Shown one piece after another: positions 25,638 through 34,005 of a stretch of DNA of 64,000 nucleotides; position 1 is the stretch's first letter; every line of letters begins with the position of its first letter. Made by a program: the position numbers and the translations under genes. The notes under the pieces are model-generated. The model saw only the letters and a program-made list of their open reading frames with translations, searched no databases and had not been told where the DNA came from. Origin of the DNA: Candidatus Thorarchaeota archaeon (GTDB lineage: Archaea > Asgardarchaeota > Thorarchaeia > Thorarchaeales > Thorarchaeaceae); assembly GCA_019057475.1 (NCBI GenBank), contig DXJO01000039.1, forward strand, positions 1 to 64,000, written 5' to 3'.

Positions 25638-26420
25638 ATGCCCAATGAAAAGACCCCTTTGCTAAGAGTTGTCGATACACATTGTCATCTCGAGCAAGCA
25701 GAGTTCCTGCATGATCTCGATGCAGTTGTGGACCGAGCTTTGGAAGGTGGAGTGCACATGATAACCTCAGCGATTACCCCTGATACATGGAGCAGAGGTC
25801 TTGACATTGCATATGAGCTCCAAAATGTTCATGCAGCCATCGGTCTGGATCCTGTTCTGTTCTCTGACCTCGAGTCTGTGCTAGATTGCATTCACAAGAA
25901 CGCCTCCCAGCTGATTGCAATTGGCGAAGTTGGACTAGACCATTACAGAACAAGAGATCATTCTGAACGCGAATGTCAGAGATCTGCATTTGAAGCTGCC
26001 ATTGAAAAGGCAGATGATCTTCGACTTCCTGTTCAGGTTCACTCCCGATCTGCTGGAAAAAAGGCCATAGAGGTCCTATCTAGCATGAACGCCCATTCTG
26101 TTCACATGCATGCATTTGATGGAAAAGCCAGCTTGGCGCGCATCGCATCACGGGAAAAGGGATACTACTTCTCGATACCAACCTCAGTTGTTCGTTCAGC
26201 TCAGAAGAGGAAGCTGGTCAAGGCTGTAGATATCGAGAGGATTCTCGTTGAAACTGACAGTCCAGTGTTGGGACCCGACAGAGAAACCAGAAACGAACCC
26301 ATGAACGTCTGGATGGCCCTGAGAGAAATAGCCAGCATTTTGAAGAGAGAAGAAGAAGAAATGCGCGAGATACTCCTTGAGAATACACTCAGGCTCTATC
26401 CGGGAATTAGGACCAAGTGA
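25638..26420 (+). CDS. TatD-family metal-dependent hydrolase
   Basis: 260 residues. Metal ligands appear in order: DTHCHLEQAEF (HxH), GEVGLDHYR (Glu), QVHSRSAGKKAIEVL (His), HMHAFDGK (His) and LVETDSPVLGPDRETRNEP (Asp), as in TatD 3'-5' DNA/RNA exonucleases of the amidohydrolase superfamily. Length is normal. Its stop is overlapped by GTG of the HD gene (GTGA), so the two are co-translated, probably together with the CinA-like gene three bases further on. A nucleic-acid quality-control role is inferred from the family. Confidence 0.85.
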   Translation: MPNEKTPLLRVVDTHCHLEQAEFLHDLDAVVDRALEGGVHMITSAITPDTWSRGLDIAYELQNVHAAIGLDPVLFSDLESVLDCIHKNASQLIAIGEVGLDHYRTRDHSERECQRSAFEAAIEKADDLRLPVQVHSRSAGKKAIEVLSSMNAHSVHMHAFDGKASLARIASREKGYYFSIPTSVVRSAQKRKLVKAVDIERILVETDSPVLGPDRETRNEPMNVWMALREIASILKREEEEMREILLENTLRLYPGIRTK

Positions 26421-27124
26421 TACAATTCATAAATGGCATGGATGGTCCTACACTGCTGGTGACTATGAAGGATGGTCTTGAAGAGAAATTGAAGCAGCTT
26501 GTTATTTCAAGAACGTCTACTGCAGCCCGTGAGGAGTGGCTGAAAGCTCAACAAGAGTCCGAAGCGCCTCTCTTCAACTACCGTTATAGTCACGTTAGTC
26601 AAGTTGTTGCTGTTGCTAAGGATTTAGCAAAGGCCGGGGGAGCTGATACGGACATTGTAACAACAGCGGCTTGGCTACACGACTTCACCAAACCCGGAAT
26701 GGGCGAAGTCCCGGGCCATGGAGAAACTAGCGCAAAAGATGCCAGAGAGATTCTGCTGAAGGAGGGGATTGACCCCGATACTGTGGAAAGAATCTGCGAT
26801 ACAATCCGGAAGCATGTTGGACTCACTCTGGACAGTCCGCTTGAACCCATGGAAGCGCAGATACTCTGGGAAGCTGACAAGTTAGTGAAACTAGGAGTCA
26901 CCGTCTTTGCTCACATGATTGTGTACATGCAGAAAGCAAGACCGGGTTTTAGTCTCAAGGACTTGGCAGATGAACTCCGTGATTACTTGGACCTTGCTGA
27001 GAGAATAGCTGCGAGCATGAATACGAAACGAGCCCAGGAACTAGCTCGAGTCAGGCTAGATGCCATGAGAGGCATCAACGAGCTATTAGACTCGGAGCTT
27101 ATGCTTGGCAAACAGGAGAGATAG
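26417..27124 (+). CDS. HD-domain phosphohydrolase
   Basis: The HD metal site is complete: YRYSHVSQVVAVAKDLAKAG (H), TTAAWLHDFTKPGMG (HD) and the trailing HVGLTLDSPLEPMEAQILWEADKL (H...D). In this family it usually dephosphorylates nucleotides or cleaves cyclic phosphodiesters; the substrate is unknown here. The start at GTG 26417 overlaps the TatD stop; an ATG at 26465 would also keep the domain. C-terminal residues 165-235 are helical. It is the middle gene of a TatD-HD-CinA-like operon. Confidence 0.8.
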   Translation: MIQFINGMDGPTLLVTMKDGLEEKLKQLVISRTSTAAREEWLKAQQESEAPLFNYRYSHVSQVVAVAKDLAKAGGADTDIVTTAAWLHDFTKPGMGEVPGHGETSAKDAREILLKEGIDPDTVERICDTIRKHVGLTLDSPLEPMEAQILWEADKLVKLGVTVFAHMIVYMQKARPGFSLKDLADELRDYLDLAERIAASMNTKRAQELARVRLDAMRGINELLDSELMLGKQER

Positions 27125-27127
27125 ATA

Positions 27128-27955
27128 ATGACCGAGAGCACGGACCCTTCGGAGGGAACGCTAAGAGCCGGAATCCTGGCGATAGGTGATGAAATCTTGG
27201 ATGGGCTTGTGCTTGATACGAACTCCAATTGGATGGAGATTCATCTGGCATCTCTCGGCGTTGAGATGAATCGACTTGTTTTAGTGCGTGATGACCTCAC
27301 CGAGATTGGATGTGCTCTAAAGTTCCTCATGGAAACATGCAATCTTGTGATTACGTCTGGTGGACTTGGACCCACCCACGATGATATGACACTGAAGGCG
27401 GTTGCTCAAGCTTTCAATAGAGATCTTGTGGAGGACTCAAGAGCCCTCAGCATAGTGGAAAAACAATACAGGGACTTGCACGACAGAGGGATAGTGAACA
27501 GTCCGGAGATAACAGAGAGCAGGAGAAAGATGGCACGCATTCCAAAAGGTTCTGCCGCTCTCAATAATACTGTCGGGGGAGCTCCCGGCGTAATGCTCGA
27601 GATTGACAACGTCACGATCTTTTGTCTACCGGGTGTACCAAGCGAGCTGAAGATGATCTTTGAGGGATCGATTGTGCCGTGGATACAGAAGAAAGGCACA
27701 AGCAAATTCTGTGAGCGCGTTGTTGAGTTTGAGATGCGCGATGAGAGTGTCTTCGCCCCAATCATCGACATTGTGATGAAAATGCATCCTGGCGTATATA
27801 TCAAATCGATGCCCCGAACCTACGGAACATCCCATGTGTTGAAAGTCTGGGTGTCATCAAGGGGGAGCGACAAGGAAACAGTCACTAGGATTGTAGACGA
27901 TGCAATCAGAAGCATAAGTCACAAAACGGGTCTAGAAGCCAGGTCGAAGGGATGA
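27128..27955 (+). CDS. CinA/MoaB-like molybdopterin-binding domain protein
   Basis: 275 residues. AGILAIGDEILDGLVLDTNSN, then LVITSGGLGPTHDDMTLKAV, is the MoCF-biosynthesis fold signature (GGxGPTxDDxT). NNTVGGAPGVMLEIDNVTIF and CLPGVPSELKMIFEG are specific to the CinA N-terminal family (competence/damage-inducible and pyrophosphatase proteins). The C-terminal deamidase (PncC) domain of bacterial CinA is absent. It starts three bases after the HD gene, hence the same transcript. The likely role is ADP-ribose- or FAD-related nucleotide clean-up, or molybdopterin binding; the sequence does not decide. Confidence 0.85.
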   Translation: MTESTDPSEGTLRAGILAIGDEILDGLVLDTNSNWMEIHLASLGVEMNRLVLVRDDLTEIGCALKFLMETCNLVITSGGLGPTHDDMTLKAVAQAFNRDLVEDSRALSIVEKQYRDLHDRGIVNSPEITESRRKMARIPKGSAALNNTVGGAPGVMLEIDNVTIFCLPGVPSELKMIFEGSIVPWIQKKGTSKFCERVVEFEMRDESVFAPIIDIVMKMHPGVYIKSMPRTYGTSHVLKVWVSSRGSDKETVTRIVDDAIRSISHKTGLEARSKG

Positions 27956-28021
27956 ACTCTCCACTCAGCCGATAGATATATCGAGCTGTTGTGCTTGCAA
28001 CTGCGGCTGGAGTAATCTATC

Positions 28022-28798
28022 GTGCAAGTGGAATTCGCAATCCTGCCAGTTGACATCGTTGTCTTCGTTATTGCTGTTGTTTACGCCGTCTTTGTCCTAA
28101 CAATGGGAGACGTGATGCGTCGCAAGCTAAACCTAGATGCAGAGTTCACCCGGAAAATCGTGCATATGTTTGGAGGAGGCGCAATCTGGACTATTCCCTT
28201 CTTTCCTCACCCGTGGTTAGCTACGTTCGTAGGATTTCTATTCGTACTAATGACCTCAATGGCTAACACTGAGAGATTCGGAAGGTTCTTCGCAGCCATG
28301 GCTCGCCCTGAAGATGTCGAAAATGCGAGTGTAAGAGGACCCTTCTGGTACGCGGTTTCGGTCACTGTGCTAACAGCTCTCTTTACGTTCACTGGAAACG
28401 AGGCAATCTTCTTCCTAGGAGCTGCAGGAATTCACATCATGATGTTTGGTGATGGCATGTCGGCACCTATAGGCATGAAGTACGGTAAGAACCACACGGT
28501 TGTCATCTTTGGATCCAAGCGAAGCCTTCAAGGCTGCCTAGCCCTTTTCGCATTCGGATTCATAGGATCACTTTTCTCCTTCTGGTACTTCGGGACCCTC
28601 TTCACCGGATACGAAGCCTTCGTTTCAGGAAATGCGATACTCTGGACTGAGATGTTCGTACTTGCATTGGCTGGTGCAACAACCGCTACATTGGTAGAAT
28701 TGGTGAGCCCAAAGGGCACAGACAACATCACCGTACCATTTATCGCATGTGCTGTCATGCTCTTGGTCGGAATGGCTCTGGGGGTAGTTGCCTTCTAG
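28022..28798 (+). CDS. Dolichol/phytol kinase-like membrane protein (SEC59 family)
   Basis: About seven hydrophobic helices in 258 residues. MRRKLNLDAEFTRKIVHMFGGG matches the R-K-x-x-H motif. FGDGMSAPIGMKYGKNHTVV is the GDG-AA-IGR-GK motif of CTP-dependent polyprenol kinases and related phosphatidate cytidylyltransferases, and FGSKRSLQGCLALFAFGFIGS resembles the KSLEG segment. Such enzymes phosphorylate dolichol or phytol at the membrane; in this organism the product could feed the N-glycan lipid carrier used by the Alg13/Alg14 pair. It starts at GTG 28022 and converges with the Rpb5-like gene (gap of two bases). Confidence 0.8.
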   Translation: MQVEFAILPVDIVVFVIAVVYAVFVLTMGDVMRRKLNLDAEFTRKIVHMFGGGAIWTIPFFPHPWLATFVGFLFVLMTSMANTERFGRFFAAMARPEDVENASVRGPFWYAVSVTVLTALFTFTGNEAIFFLGAAGIHIMMFGDGMSAPIGMKYGKNHTVVIFGSKRSLQGCLALFAFGFIGSLFSFWYFGTLFTGYEAFVSGNAILWTEMFVLALAGATTATLVELVSPKGTDNITVPFIACAVMLLVGMALGVVAF

Positions 28799-28800
28799 GC

Positions 28801-29361
28801 TTAGGAAGGCGCATCAACAACAAGCCTATAGTAATAGATGGAGCCCGCTGTAGGACTGGCCCGTTCAATCCGGATAACCTGCTCAACCTTTGCGCCCAGG
28901 ACTCTCGCTGCTGGATCGTCTCTCAGTATTCTTGGCAATTGACGCTTCTCCATGCCATAATGACTGAGTACAAGTTGCACTTCACTTTCTTCAGCGATTG
29001 TATGCTGGGGGACCAGCTCATGTCCGAACAGGTCAAACGAGGCATATCCGCCCTCGACAAGTTCGACCCTCGTAATTCTAGCGTACTTCTTGGCAGCAGG
29101 TGTGTACCTTGTCCCTCCTACAAGCATACCTTGAATGGAGTTGGTTTCTTCCATCTCCTTCACGATGTCTCTAACTATGGCCACTCCAATGACCTTCTGT
29201 TCCTTGAAAATCCAGACTACAGACTTCAGGACATCTTCTTCATCCGTTTTTTCAGGATAAAGCGCGTATCTATTCTCATATTCGAGAACTTCATCCACGA
29301 CATATCTGCGCAGATTCAGAAGAGCTCTCGTTTTCATTACAATGGAAGGTAGCTCTACCAA
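28801..29361 (-). CDS. rpoH: Full-length Rpb5-like RNA polymerase subunit H, copy 1
   Basis: 186 residues. The C-terminal 75 residues are archaeal RpoH (FGHELVPQHTIAEESEVQL, MEKRQLPRILRDDPAARVLG, SIYYYRLVV). The first 110 residues are not found in usual archaeal RpoH but line up with the jaw domain of eukaryotic Rpb5: TRALLNLRRYVVDEVLE, KVIGVAIVRDIVKEMEE (yeast SVGVKTMKTFVIHIQE) and MLVGGTRYTPAAKK (yeast IFVYQNNITPSAMK). It would sit in the lower jaw of RNA polymerase near downstream DNA. TTG 29361 fits because the same N-terminal residues (VELPSIVMK versus MEELPAIVIK) open copy 2. Alone here, it is not next to rpoB. Confidence 0.85.
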   Translation of the reverse strand: MVELPSIVMKTRALLNLRRYVVDEVLEYENRYALYPEKTDEEDVLKSVVWIFKEQKVIGVAIVRDIVKEMEETNSIQGMLVGGTRYTPAAKKYARITRVELVEGGYASFDLFGHELVPQHTIAEESEVQLVLSHYGMEKRQLPRILRDDPAARVLGAKVEQVIRIERASPTAGSIYYYRLVVDAPS

Positions 29362-29402
29362 TTGACAACACCCGATTAGAACAATTCATCCATACTTGGC
29401 GC

Positions 29403-29411
29403 CCTTATAAG
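29403..29411 (-). promoter_or_regulatory. TATA box for Rpb5 copy 1
   Basis: On the minus strand the sequence is CTTATAAGG, 42-50 bases before TTG 29361. It lies in the spacer between the two Rpb5 genes, so copy 1 probably has its own promoter. Confidence 0.55.
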
Positions 29412-29453
29412 AGTTGTAGAGTGTTGGCCAATTCTGACCTCCAAGTACACTGT

Positions 29454-30011
29454 TTAGTTGGAATCCACAACAAGACGGTAGTAATATACAATGCCAGAGG
29501 TTGCACTATCGCGTTCAATTCTCACGACTTGACCGGGCTTCGCTCCAAGTGCCTTGGCAGCTGGATCATCTCTGAGAATTCGCGGAAGCTGATTCTTTTC
29601 GATTCCGTAATGGCTGAGCACGAGTTGTATTTCATCAGCACTGACAATTGAGTGCTTGGAAACAAGCTCGTGTTGGAATATGTCAAAGGATGCGTAAGTT
29701 CCCTCAATCAACTCAACCCTTGCCGTTCGAGCAGATTTCTTGGCCGCAGGGGTAAACCTCAGGCCGCCCACGAGCATGCCATCCCGTGCATTTCGCTCTT
29801 CCATTTCCCGAGCTACTTCCCTGACCAGGGCTACCCCGACCACCTTGGACTCCTTGAGAATCCAGGTGACCACTCTAACCGCATCTGCCCCGCTGTCTTT
29901 GATTGGATACATTACGTATCTGTTCTCGTACTCGAACAGCTCATCGACTACATAATCGCGCATAGTCAGTAGAGCTCTCGTCTTAATTACAATAGCTGGA
30001 AGTTCCTCCAT
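29454..30011 (-). CDS. rpoH: Full-length Rpb5-like RNA polymerase subunit H, copy 2
   Basis: 185 residues from ATG 30011, paralogue of the neighbouring gene with many identities along its whole length. The jaw domain includes TRALLTMRDYVVDELFEYEN, KVVGVALVREVAREMEE and MLVGGLRFTPAAKKS. The RpoH domain has FQHELVSKHSIVSADEIQL, NQLPRILRDDPAAKALGAKP and VYYYRLVVDS. Both copies keep the H-E-L-V and QLPRI...DP residues that contact Rpb1, so both look functional. A stretch reading from 30071 adds 20 unlikely residues. The two copies might assemble alternative polymerases or be a recent tandem duplication under divergence. Confidence 0.85.
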   Translation of the reverse strand: MEELPAIVIKTRALLTMRDYVVDELFEYENRYVMYPIKDSGADAVRVVTWILKESKVVGVALVREVAREMEERNARDGMLVGGLRFTPAAKKSARTARVELIEGTYASFDIFQHELVSKHSIVSADEIQLVLSHYGIEKNQLPRILRDDPAAKALGAKPGQVVRIERDSATSGIVYYYRLVVDSN

Positions 30012-30054: not shown

Positions 30055-30063
30055 CATATAAAC
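30055..30063 (-). promoter_or_regulatory. TATA box for Rpb5 copy 2
   Basis: GTTTATATG on the minus strand lies 44-52 bases ahead of ATG 30011. With the box ahead of copy 1 it suggests separate transcription of the two genes. Confidence 0.5.
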
Positions 30064-30370: not shown

Positions 30371-30796
30371 TTGCCCGGACTTACGAAAGGAATGATTGCT
30401 GACGTCCAGAATAAGAGGGAGATTCGACTTCCGGATGACTTCTTCAAGAATGCAGACCTAAAAGGCATGAAGGCCGCGATGGTCATTTACTTTGAGAGAT
30501 CCGGGGAAATTCGTCTAATCCCAATGATGAAAGATGGTGGTGCTCGAGTCAGGTTGGAAGTCGAGAAGGTCAATCCAGCGCTGATGCAGACAATGACTCA
30601 CCTCTTCAAGGAGCATGACCTGAAGGTTCTGTTCACAACTGGCTTCTGTTTCGAGCAGAATAGATGCATCTACGAAGTATACTTCGCCGCTGACGCAATC
30701 AAAGAAAAAGAAGCGGACATTCGCAAGACAATCGGAAGCATTCCGGGCTTGTACGAGAGCGAGTTTGAGATACTAGAACTGGGTGTAGACTGGTAG
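30371..30796 (+). CDS. Uncharacterised protein with AbrB-like N-terminus
   Basis: 141 residues. The N-terminus (IADVQNKREIRLPDDFFKNADL) has the swapped-hairpin look of SpoVT/AbrB DNA-binding domains. The rest (VNPALMQTMTHLFKEHDLKV, then VYFAADAIKEKEADIRKTI) has a beta-alpha-beta-beta-alpha pattern like an ACT ligand-binding domain. That would make a ligand-responsive regulator, but this is inference. TTG 30371 has a purine-rich GAGGCGAT before it, and GATAAATATAC near 30320 may be the TATA box. It faces the RHH gene at its 3' end. Confidence 0.55.
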   Translation: MPGLTKGMIADVQNKREIRLPDDFFKNADLKGMKAAMVIYFERSGEIRLIPMMKDGGARVRLEVEKVNPALMQTMTHLFKEHDLKVLFTTGFCFEQNRCIYEVYFAADAIKEKEADIRKTIGSIPGLYESEFEILELGVDW

Positions 30797-30818
30797 GCTG
30801 CAACAGAGGTAAGTGAGT

Positions 30819-31430
30819 TTAGCGCGTTTCCCTTAATGCCACATTCTCTTTCACGTTTGTTTCTACAAGTTCAAGTTTAATCTTGAAGAGAGACTCCAGA
30901 TATCCCCTAATGAACGGAGCAGGATAGAACGGACCTCCAATCACAATGAGGTCATCGTGGGAACTGAATTCACCCCATCCAGAATTTTGCAGCAATTGGA
31001 AAGCTAGCTCACGAGTTGCCGTGTCTCTGACATCCTTTCCGTGGAACAAGCGAATTACATCAGCAACAGGCGCTTGGCTTCCAGCGGTTTCACCCAGTAC
31101 GTACTGTTCCACAGGCGTGAGCTTTGAGAAGAACAGCGAAGACAGCGTTTCTGACTCAAGCACACTCCGAACAGCGTTAACGTAAAGCCCACGCTCAGCC
31201 CACTTGTGTACAGTGAAGTCTAGATACCATCGAACAGCATCTTCGATTAGTTGTGCTCTCGATCGGCCGACTCTGTCCTGAACCAACTTATCCATCAGTT
31301 TGACAATCGAGCTGCTCATTGTAACACTGATGATTTTCTTTTTATCAGATTTCTCAGATCCTTTTGGCACGCCAGGTCGTCTCCCTACTACACTCCCGCA
31401 AGTGGCTGAATTGAACTTGCCAGCCTTCAA
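30819..31430 (-). CDS. Ribbon-helix-helix (CopG-like) transcription regulator
   Basis: 203 residues. Residues about 31-72 form an RHH domain (KKKIISVTMSSSIVKLMDKL, then GRSRAQLIEDAVRWYLDF), which dimerises and inserts a beta-ribbon in the major groove. The C-terminal 130 residues are a helical and alpha/beta region of unknown role, perhaps a sensor. The long frame begins at TTG 31430; a GTG near 31370 would still keep the ribbon strand. TATATTCG on the minus strand lies near 31443. Its target is unknown; the adjacent AbrB-like gene is a candidate. Confidence 0.7.
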   Translation of the reverse strand: MKAGKFNSATCGSVVGRRPGVPKGSEKSDKKKIISVTMSSSIVKLMDKLVQDRVGRSRAQLIEDAVRWYLDFTVHKWAERGLYVNAVRSVLESETLSSLFFSKLTPVEQYVLGETAGSQAPVADVIRLFHGKDVRDTATRELAFQLLQNSGWGEFSSHDDLIVIGGPFYPAPFIRGYLESLFKIKLELVETNVKENVALRETR

Positions 31431-31583
31431 TATTGAGTATTCGAATATACGGGGTCTGAGTATTATGCATGTAGAGCTACTATTTGAACTCTTGGGATAG
31501 CCTAGCGAAGGTTACTCCGAAGTACGAGTACACAGCCAGAAACTTTAATCATACATTCATCACTGCGCTAACTGGCTAATGCT

Positions 31584-31862
31584 ATGTCTTACAGTGAACT
31601 CTGGTTGGAGATGCGAGGTAGCGACAATTCATTCCGGGTGGTTCTCCTAACTCCAGTTGATTTTGAGATGCCGAACGGTTTTACTGTGGGGGACATTCAG
31701 AATTTCCTGCCCCAGAAGAAGCTATACTATTCAGAGTGGTTTCCCAGCGTAGCTAAGGCCAAGGAATCAATGGATGCTGCTTCACAATTCTACAACGAAC
31801 GTTCGATTCATTTTCTGTACTTCAGAGAGATACGACCGAGCCAAAAGAAATCTGGCGACTAG
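31584..31862 (+). CDS. Small hypothetical protein, 92 aa
   Basis: A soluble acidic/basic mix with a compact alpha/beta pattern (LWLEMRGSDNSFRVVLLTPV, YSEWFPSVAKAKESMDAASQ). ATG 31584 follows a possible TATA stretch (CTTTAATCAT, near 31543) at a plausible distance. It converges with tnpB, 20 bases away. I do not recognise the family. Confidence 0.5.
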   Translation: MSYSELWLEMRGSDNSFRVVLLTPVDFEMPNGFTVGDIQNFLPQKKLYYSEWFPSVAKAKESMDAASQFYNERSIHFLYFREIRPSQKKSGD

Positions 31863-31881
31863 TCCACTGACGCATACTATT

Positions 31882-34005
31882 TTATTGTCCAAACTTGTCA
31901 CCCCTTGAGGGAAGTCCGGATTGGCCCTGGTATGCGGACAGGGCACGGTTAGCGTAAGTCATTGCAGCATTGTGATGTCTGTTCACTCTCTCACCACATT
32001 CATCGCATCTCAGAGTGTCCCAGTCACCTGTATTTATTAGCCTGCCTCCACAGTTCACATGAGTACCCACTCTTGGTGCAACACCCTTTGTTTCCACTGG
32101 GACTCCTTTCACGTCAAGTACTTCCAGTGCGTACTCCATTATGATCTCTAGCCTCTTTGGCATGTGAGTTATCGCTTTAGCCAGGGCTCCTCTTGTGCCT
32201 CTTGTGCTCAGTTTCGATATGTTCATCTCATAGCCTATGACCTCTGGTCTGCACTCGTAGACGACCTCTGCCAGCAGTCGCCCACAGGCTCTGTCAAGCT
32301 CAGCCTTCAGTCTTGCAACACGTGCATGAACCATCGCAATCTCCTTCTTCAGTTTGTAGGACATCCGCTTCTTGTTCAGGCGTTCATACTTTGCCCTCTT
32401 TCTTGTGAGTCGTGGTAGAACAACATCCCTCAGTCGGACTATCCTCTTTGATATCTGCTCAACACGACTCATGTCACCAAGTGGAGCTCTCTCTGTTGAC
32501 CCGATCACAAACACATCCTTCGATGGACGATTCGGGTCTACTCCAACAGCCTCTACCGACCTCTTCTTGATCTTGATGCGGTTCAAGAATTTTGTGCTGG
32601 GCTTGAAGTCCGGAATCTCAAGGACGATATCGAATTTCACTTTCTTCGTTGGCCCCTCTGGCGGCAGTACACGTGCTGACCTGACTCTTGCTCCTTGCAA
32701 GATGTGGCTCCTGATTGTCTTGCTCGCTATCACTCTCATTGTGATCTTTCTTCTTCGACTGGGTCTGACTGTGAACTCTGTGTAACCCATGTTCCGAAAG
32801 TCGTCAGTGATCTGGGTCGAGTTGCCACGGGCTATCACATACTTCGGACCCATGTGTAGCTCCAACGGGAGTTCGTTGCGTGTTGTGCTGCTGAAGGGGA
32901 CTGATATGCAGTTGCTGACTGTGAGATGCCTGATGAACCCTCTCTCATCTGTGACTAAGGAGGCTGCAATGATCTCTCTGAGAGCTGACAGGTAGTTATG
33001 TCGTCCTCCAAGTCTACTTCTGACAACTTCAGACAATGACTTGAGGAATCGCCTTGAGGGCAGGATATGCTCAAGAAGGTCTTCGAACTCATCGACTCTG
33101 TCGGTCAGGTCCTTGACCTTTCTCAGGAACACCTCTGCTCTCTGGCTGTCCTTACCATCACGTTTCATCGACTCGATGTTGTTCTCAACACGTCTCAGTA
33201 GGCGTCTAGCTTCTCTCACAAAGTCGTTCTTCCTCACTCTGAATGTCGAATGGGGCGGACTCACATGAGCCAGCCTGTCCATCCCTCTGACAAGAGTGTC
33301 AGTCTTTCCTACGAACACCAACGCATGCATTCTCTGCAACTTGTTCAATACTCTCTCGTCACCATTGAACAGTCGCCTGTGTGCCTCTACCTGTTCATTC
33401 ACACGATCAATCCTGTAGGATAGCTTGTCATCTATCTTGTTGCGGAGACCTCGAATTGTAGCATTCATCCATCTCTCCTCTACGTTGAACATCTTTGCCA
33501 TGGTCAGTGAAAGGTATCTGGGCACCTGTCCGAAGAACGCTATCGAGGGAATACACACTTCAAAATCACCTTGTAGCAGGTCTCTCAACTTCTTGAGCTT
33601 CTCCACTAGGCTCATCTGTACCTCGCATGCATTCCCTAGAGAGTAGAAGTACGAGTGAGCAAGGTTCTCCTCGATCCCTGTGTGCGCTCGCAATTTGGCT
33701 GCTCCGCTAATACCACCACTCGATATCGCTCCTGAGCGAAAGAGCTGGAATGCAATTGGTGCAAGACACTTTGCTTGGGACATTGCGCGACGACAGAATT
33801 TAGAAACAGTGTCAGCAGCCTCGTACTCCAGTGACTTCGGAGTTCCTTCAGGTCGTCGCCAGCTCGTTGTATAGGTGCGGATCTCAGGTTGTTGTTGAGG
33901 TTCTGTTGTCTTGGTGTTGTTGTTTGGGGTCTGGGGTTGTGATGGTGTGCGGTTGGTGGTTGCGGCGGGGGGCAGCTGCGGGTGGGTAGTTCTCACATCG
34001 GTCAT
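31882..34005 (-). CDS. tnpB: Large TnpB-like RNA-guided nuclease with altered RuvC-III, 707 aa
   Basis: The C-terminal third is the TnpB nuclease: RuvC-I AVGVDPNRPSKDVFVIG (Asp near 507), a coiled insertion, and RuvC-II PEVIGYEMNISKL (Glu). RuvC-III reads CDECGERVNRHHNAAMTYA, where the usual catalytic Asp of DRDxNAA is His. The zinc ribbon keeps CDEC, but its first pair is HVNC rather than CxxC. The N-terminus opens with a Pro/Thr/Gln-rich tract of 45 residues. Typical TnpB is about 400 residues, so this is nearly twice as long, in the range of Fanzor-like proteins. The neighbour is a serine recombinase of the IS607 type, so the element is an IS607 relative. The protein may be a nuclease-dead regulator or a very divergent active one; sequence alone cannot say. 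Confidence 0.8.
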   Translation of the reverse strand: MTDVRTTHPQLPPAATTNRTPSQPQTPNNNTKTTEPQQQPEIRTYTTSWRRPEGTPKSLEYEAADTVSKFCRRAMSQAKCLAPIAFQLFRSGAISSGGISGAAKLRAHTGIEENLAHSYFYSLGNACEVQMSLVEKLKKLRDLLQGDFEVCIPSIAFFGQVPRYLSLTMAKMFNVEERWMNATIRGLRNKIDDKLSYRIDRVNEQVEAHRRLFNGDERVLNKLQRMHALVFVGKTDTLVRGMDRLAHVSPPHSTFRVRKNDFVREARRLLRRVENNIESMKRDGKDSQRAEVFLRKVKDLTDRVDEFEDLLEHILPSRRFLKSLSEVVRSRLGGRHNYLSALREIIAASLVTDERGFIRHLTVSNCISVPFSSTTRNELPLELHMGPKYVIARGNSTQITDDFRNMGYTEFTVRPSRRRKITMRVIASKTIRSHILQGARVRSARVLPPEGPTKKVKFDIVLEIPDFKPSTKFLNRIKIKKRSVEAVGVDPNRPSKDVFVIGSTERAPLGDMSRVEQISKRIVRLRDVVLPRLTRKRAKYERLNKKRMSYKLKKEIAMVHARVARLKAELDRACGRLLAEVVYECRPEVIGYEMNISKLSTRGTRGALAKAITHMPKRLEIIMEYALEVLDVKGVPVETKGVAPRVGTHVNCGGRLINTGDWDTLRCDECGERVNRHHNAAMTYANRALSAYQGQSGLPSRGDKFGQ

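Follow-up and report, generated by a model that had tools for sequence, protein, structure and literature searches.

Tandem Full-Length Rpb5-Type RNA Polymerase Subunits in a Thorarchaeota Archaeon and the Archaeal Distribution of Their N-Terminal Jaw Domain

The DNA analyzed here (the window, the whole stretch of 64,000 nucleotides) contains two adjacent genes for an RpoH/Rpb5-type RNA polymerase subunit, both on the reverse strand. The upstream gene, copy B, occupies positions 29454 to 30011, starts with ATG, and encodes 185 amino acids. The downstream gene, copy A, occupies positions 28801 to 29361 and encodes 186 amino acids from a TTG start that is kept in all four genomes of the genus that were compared. 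The two proteins are 66% identical to each other. Each consists of an N-terminal jaw-like domain (residues 1–107; positions 29691 to 30011 in copy B and 29041 to 29361 in copy A) followed by a C-terminal assembly (RpoH) domain (residues 108–185 of copy B, positions 29457 to 29690; residues 108–186 of copy A, positions 28804 to 29040). A TPAAKK motif is found at residues 87–92 of both proteins, at positions 29736 to 29753 in copy B, where it is aligned with T117-P118-S119 of yeast Rpb5, and at 29086 to 29103 in copy A. The description of two tandem full-length Rpb5-like subunits given in an earlier note on this DNA therefore holds for both open reading frames.

The C-terminal 72–73 residues (109–181) of both copies correspond to the Pfam domain Rpb5_C (PF01191), with E values of 2e-27 for copy B and 1e-25 for copy A. 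The NCBIfam model NF007129 scores above its equivalog cutoff, and the C-terminal domain is 53–54% identical to Rpo5 of Pyrococcus/Thermococcus in a structure alignment. The whole genome (3.34 Mb, 96.4% complete) was searched with PF01191, and the only matches are the two tandem copies. The check for a short canonical rpoH elsewhere in the genome, which the earlier note had proposed, was thus carried out, and none is present in this assembly. The genome contains one rpoB and one rpoA1, which are located on the same contig and apart from the rpoH pair. Since rpoB is found on contig C54 and the pair on contig C19, the pair lies outside the rpoH-rpoB-rpoA operon.

The genes that flank the pair (positions 25638 to 28798 and 30371 to 31862) also accompany rpoH in other Thor genomes. 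On one side these are TatD-like, HD-domain, CinA-like, and membrane-kinase-like genes; the other side has a ribbon-helix-helix gene. Just upstream of the pair, a reverse-strand open reading frame of 40 amino acids (30237 to 30118; MAKEGATYVCDICQQ...CCNQPMRLYEGD) shows a Cys4 desulforedoxin-like pattern. A TnpB-like open reading frame of 707 amino acids (31882 to 34005, reverse strand) contains a C-terminal zinc-finger-like CxxC region and is probably an insertion element.

The N-terminal domain (NTD) was characterized using a profile built from 31 Asgard sequences trimmed to the NTD, with all PDB chains as the target. Thirteen distinct eukaryotic Rpb5 chains are detected with E values from 3.6e-9 to 0.009, and positions 7–98 of the profile align with residues 12–121 of human Rpb5. 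Nothing else in the whole PDB is significant, nucleases included, and the next match appears at an E value of 0.08. The same outcome was obtained with a second profile of 43 sequences that included Bathyarchaeia. With hhalign, the NTD matches a profile of the fungal/plant Rpb5 jaw at a probability of 96.7% (E value of 3.8e-10) and the Bathyarchaeia NTD at 99.7%. The VGVxxxR and TPAAKK motifs line up with VGVK(T/E)M and TPSAxK of Rpb5, respectively. The kinship of the NTD with the eukaryotic jaw proposed earlier is borne out by the PDB profile search, hhalign, and the motif alignment, which support the archaeal NTD as a homologue of the Rpb5 jaw.

The near-invariant motif of the NTD is T-x-x-A, which reads TPAAKK in both window copies. 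The Thr is kept in 41 of 42 Asgard and 22 of 24 Bathyarchaeia sequences, and the Pro in 17 of 42 and 1 of 24, respectively. In yeast Rpb5, T117-P118-S119 touch the minor groove of the downstream DNA, 15–20 nt before the fork (PMC6690254); given the poor conservation of the Pro, the contact in archaea may not be identical in its details. The Pfam model for the eukaryotic domain, RNA_pol_Rpb5_N (PF03871), matches neither window protein and 3 of 31 relatives. In yeast Rpb5, the one protein checked, this model spans residues 6–99 and ends ahead of the TPSA motif, which may be the reason that the window proteins are missed.

The AlphaFold2 model of the full-length protein has a pLDDT of 87.8, and that of the NTD alone has a pLDDT of 91.6 and a pTM of 0.84. 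When the full-length model was compared with the PDB using Foldseek, the top 34 matches were eukaryotic, plant, or viral RPB5 chains. The alignments cover 138–211 columns, which exceeds the approximately 76 columns of the C-terminal domain alone. The overall rmsd of about 13 Å in these matches probably results from a different inter-domain angle. The NTD alone matches Rpb5 chains at an rmsd of 2.0–4.1 Å with a TMq of up to 0.66. The EndoMS and MspJI nucleases are also matched by the isolated NTD, and EndoMS ranks above Rpb5.

A relationship to nucleases appears in the sequence profiles as well. Mrr_cat (PF04471) matches 31 of 31 archaeal NTDs (best E value of 2e-12), outranks all other Pfam models for each of them, and matches three of four eukaryotic jaws weakly, which places the archaeal NTDs between the nucleases and the eukaryotic jaw in sequence. 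The window proteins singly match Mrr_cat and not PF03871; copy B is above the cutoff (1.8e-6) and copy A is below it (1e-3). In the core strand, where a catalytic (E/Q)xK would be located as judged from the alignment columns, V-x-W is found in both window copies, and no aligned member has both the E/Q and the K. A search of 17 Asgard genomes with the NTD profile returned no unfused NTD, apart from one marginal partial match. The NTD of Rpb5 has been described as a restriction-enzyme fold that has lost its catalytic activity (PMC1185551, PMC551604). From its sequence, the archaeal NTD likewise appears to be a PD-(D/E)XK (Mrr/NucS-like) nuclease fold that was inactivated by loss of the catalytic residues.

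These matches could also be read as a convergent fusion, in which archaea independently added an Mrr/NucS-like domain to RpoH, and the resemblance to the jaw comes from nothing but the shared PD-(D/E)XK fold. The top Pfam match of all NTDs (Mrr_cat) and the top fold match of the isolated NTD (EndoMS) would suit such an origin, as would the trees of the C-terminal domain (75 positions, fast searches), in which the long forms do not make up one clade. An AU test over the same 75 columns, also with fast searches, gave a p value of 0.018 against monophyly of the long forms, a value that was not relied on, and the C-terminal domain tree is treated as uninformative. However, the NTD-only profile is significant in the PDB for Rpb5 jaws and for no nuclease, the catalytic residues are lost as they are in Rpb5, and the domain order, the junction with the assembly domain, and the RGY, VGV, and T-x-x-A motifs all match Rpb5. 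An independent fusion is considered quite unlikely.

The distribution of the jaw-type NTD was determined in 228 Asgard genomes from 28 families by scoring the domain directly on extracted open reading frames. It is present in 20 of the 28 families, and the carriers include Thorarchaeota, Borrarchaeum/Sifarchaeum, Jordarchaeia/Freyarchaeota, and Heimdallarchaeota MAGs; CSMAG_2438, CSMAG_3034, and HM4_FB6 are carriers from the genus of the window (g1). In this sample, the domain is absent from families f2, f3, f4, f19, and f20, which are Loki-like by inference, and from the Odin-like family f26, which we take to be that of Odinarchaeum. It is also absent from f21, once G161, a genome with a copy very similar to that of f14, is set aside. 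The sole RpoH sequence of f23 has 246 amino acids and an NTD match below significance.

The phylum-balanced archaeal sample contained no recognizable Bathyarchaeia. In a full-length alignment search of named archaeal genomes, the same two-domain protein was found in many Bathyarchaeota, and across 397 Thermoproteota genomes the long rpoH frames are confined to a subset of families, those Bathyarchaeota among them. About 200 non-Asgard rpoH frames from other archaeal phyla, among those listed, are all short. The jaw is absent from the eight non-Asgard frames that were read individually (three among the longest and five others); the long ones contain non-coding upstream sequence or SAP-like extensions. 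A jaw restricted to Asgard archaea is ruled out by the Bathyarchaeia carriers, and the occurrence in 20 of 28 Asgard families and in Bathyarchaeia shows that the domain is not peculiar to the window genome either. The textbook view cited in the earlier note, that canonical archaeal RpoH has the C-terminal domain only, fails for most Asgard archaea and for Bathyarchaeia. The same note would have counted a fusion common in ordinary archaea against its proposal; the fusion does occur in Bathyarchaeia but was not found in the other non-Asgard archaea sampled.

Several variant forms of RpoH were observed in these surveys. In two Asgard families (f7 and f8), the protein has 430–500 amino acids, and the assembly domain is preceded by jaw-like repeats in tandem, two of them clear and one weak. 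RpoH of the Asgard family f6 has a long C-terminal tail rich in Lys, Ala, Pro, and Thr that resembles a histone H1 tail. In families f24 and f25, the NTD is divergent and the RpoH domain has an insertion (KEELIKKYGKKFGE) before its last strand. In two non-Asgard archaeal genomes, the N-terminal extension of RpoH looks like a SAP-type DNA-binding domain and not like a jaw. Unlinked pairs of long-frame rpoH genes, on different contigs, are found in at least two Thermoproteota genomes of the long-rpoH (Bathyarchaeia-like) families, one of them G850 and another with a copy at G546:C48:16719-16937.

The long and short genes differ in their genomic location. The short rpoH is found directly upstream of rpoB at 33 of 33 loci, including three short-form Asgard loci that were checked, whereas rpoB is found near the long rpoH at 0 of 50 loci, within the flank present (up to 4 kb). 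The long gene is thus not simply the operonic gene extended in place. Either the gene moved to a new site, or it is an ancient second gene that took the place of the operonic one, the two forms being lost reciprocally. A search for genomes that carry the long rpoH alongside a short operonic copy gave no convincing case.

A tree of the full-length protein was calculated from 188 columns with the LG+F+R5 model and included five eukaryotic sequences. The groups recovered are Bathyarchaeia, a Heimdall-type cluster, Thor with Jord, and f15–f17, and several deep nodes have low support. The tree largely follows recognized groups, broadly as expected for vertical descent. The eukaryotes appear on a long branch, with 46% support for a position beside the long-branched f24/f25. 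Four placements of the eukaryotes were compared by the AU test with fast searches; none is rejected, and the best-scoring one is with the Heimdall-type cluster.

The earlier note had left it open whether the jaw predates eukaryotes or was acquired. Acquisition from outside could have taken the form of a transfer, in which full-length Rpb5 arose in eukaryotes and reached Asgard archaea and Bathyarchaeia by way of proto-eukaryotes or giant viruses. Rpb5 is carried by giant viruses, and a long rpoH that is never in the rpoB operon would be expected of an incoming replacement gene. Against this, the archaeal NTDs are more diverse than the five eukaryotic sequences that were compared, and their diversity broadly tracks recognized groups. 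The archaeal NTDs are also nearer to Mrr than the eukaryotic ones, whereas descent from eukaryotes would predict the reverse. In addition, no related locus was found in viral contigs searched with one pattern. A transfer of this kind is regarded as very improbable. The wider diversity of the archaeal NTDs and their closer likeness to nucleases point to archaea as the first to carry the domain, and the jaw probably arose there before eukaryotes; the suggestion of acquisition is not supported, as the tree largely follows recognized groups.

Tandem pairs with copies approximately 650 bp apart are found in genera g1, g8, g9, and g10 of the Thor family, and the other genera have a single copy. The upstream copies of g1, g8, and g10 group together in a clade with 100% support. 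Those of g9 are located in another clade (96% support), and in g9 it is the downstream copies that are divergent. From these two clades, the duplication is old within the family and occurred either once with losses or twice. Pairwise dN/dS values (NG86; four genomes of the genus) are about 0.10–0.17 for copy A and 0.11–0.27 for copy B. Both copies are under purifying selection.

A TATA-like element, TTTATATG, is located 43 nt before the start of copy B (positions 30055 to 30062, reverse strand). A second, CTTATAAG, is located 42 nt before the start of copy A (29404 to 29411, reverse strand), in the 92-nt intergenic gap. Both putative elements are kept in four genomes of the genus, across which the spacing to the start of about 43 nt is nearly identical. 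Since TTTATATG by itself is expected by chance about once per 64,000-nt window, the case for these elements is based on the four-genome conservation. The earlier proposal of a separate TATA box for each copy agrees with this result.

One of the two Thor copies could instead be a decoy, a regulator, or a decaying duplicate rather than a polymerase subunit. The duplicates are limited to certain lineages, the downstream copies of g9 are divergent, and a truncated extra fragment of 48 amino acids is found in one relative (G208). Yet the assembly domain and TPAAKK are retained in both copies, the upstream regions of both are conserved, and the dN/dS values given above are low for both. This explanation is unlikely, though less so than the two considered before it. 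A role in alternative polymerases, suggested in the earlier note, does not agree with the single rpoB and single rpoA1, which allow at most two isoforms of one RNA polymerase. The simplest reading of the sequences is that two independently promoted jaw isoforms would be used on one core enzyme.

The window proteins resemble eukaryotic Rpb5 (RPABC1/POLR2E; PDB 1dzf) in the order of the jaw and assembly domains, in a restriction-endonuclease-like NTD without catalytic residues, in the RGY, VGVK, and TPSA motifs, and in an identity of about 25–36% over structure-aligned columns with fungal and mammalian chains. They differ in that the archaeal NTD has about 107 residues compared with about 142, with a shorter insertion between RGY and VGV, and is more Mrr-like. 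The archaeal form also serves one RNA polymerase, not three, is duplicated in Thor, and in the two other Asgard families has the jaw repeated two to three times per protein. With canonical archaeal RpoH/Rpo5 (PF01191, PRK09570/NF007129), the window copies share the C-terminal assembly domain and are the only subunit-H genes of their genome, but they carry the extra jaw domain and lie outside the rpoH-rpoB-rpoA operon. The Mrr_cat/NucS(EndoMS)-like nucleases (PF04471, PF01939) are similar in profile and fold, and unlike them the NTD is without the catalytic D...(E/Q)xK and is fused to RpoH in the genomes searched, bar the one marginal match. Rpo13 of the Sulfolobales occupies a place near the downstream DNA that is partly filled by the jaw of eukaryotic Rpb5 (PMC2675907). 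This small helix-turn-helix protein is unrelated to the jaw and fills the equivalent position in a different way, which fits a repeated filling of that spot.

The two genes are best read as tandem functional Rpo5/RpoH paralogues in the full-length Rpb5 form, a form that was archaeal before it was eukaryotic; a probability of roughly 0.8 is assigned to this reading. By analogy with the family, the C-terminal domain would dock on the C-terminal part of Rpo1. The NTD would act as a lower jaw that holds the downstream duplex as it enters, its T-P-A loop lying at the minor groove as it does in the yeast subunit, and homology suggests that the jaw would steady the open and elongating complexes. The long form, encoded at a separate locus away from the rpoB operon, would have replaced the operonic short rpoH. 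At least the Asgard lineage of archaea would have carried it before eukaryotes arose, and Bathyarchaeia have a homologous form. Duplication in Thor would then have provided two jaw isoforms, each with its own promoter, that may compete for one core enzyme. A broader scenario is somewhat favored, in which archaea made the jaw out of an Mrr/NucS-like nuclease that had lost its activity, and the lineage that founded the eukaryotes already possessed it. Most Asgard archaea and Bathyarchaeia would still use it, while the short operonic form would have been retained by the Loki-like, Odin-like, and other archaea. The Thor pairs and the proteins with two to three jaws in two Asgard families would represent swappable or extended jaws on one polymerase.

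From 2009 to 2024 the Rpb5 jaw has been described as eukaryote-specific (PMC2675907, PMC6690254, PMC10881513), or archaeal RpoH as lacking it. No report of an archaeal Rpb5 jaw was found in the literature searched; prior notice is possible in subscription papers, preprints, or supplements, which were outside this search. The Rpo5 passages of a 2026 survey of archaeal RNA polymerase small subunits, which covers Asgard archaea and Bathyarchaeota, do not mention a jaw, and the main text of a 2023 Asgard reconstruction paper treats RPB8 and not RPB5. If the present reading is correct, a piece of Pol I, II, and III that grips the downstream DNA and is bound by regulators would be an archaeal inheritance, and its likely nuclease origin would be visible in intermediates. 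The function of the jaw would be open to study in a simpler system with a single polymerase. Yeast Rpb5 has already been used for reconstitution with a Pyrococcus RNA polymerase depleted of subunit H (PMC3906176). The presence or absence of the jaw, together with the uncoupling of its gene from the rpoB operon, would provide a new character for the placement of Asgard groups, Bathyarchaeia, and eukaryotes.
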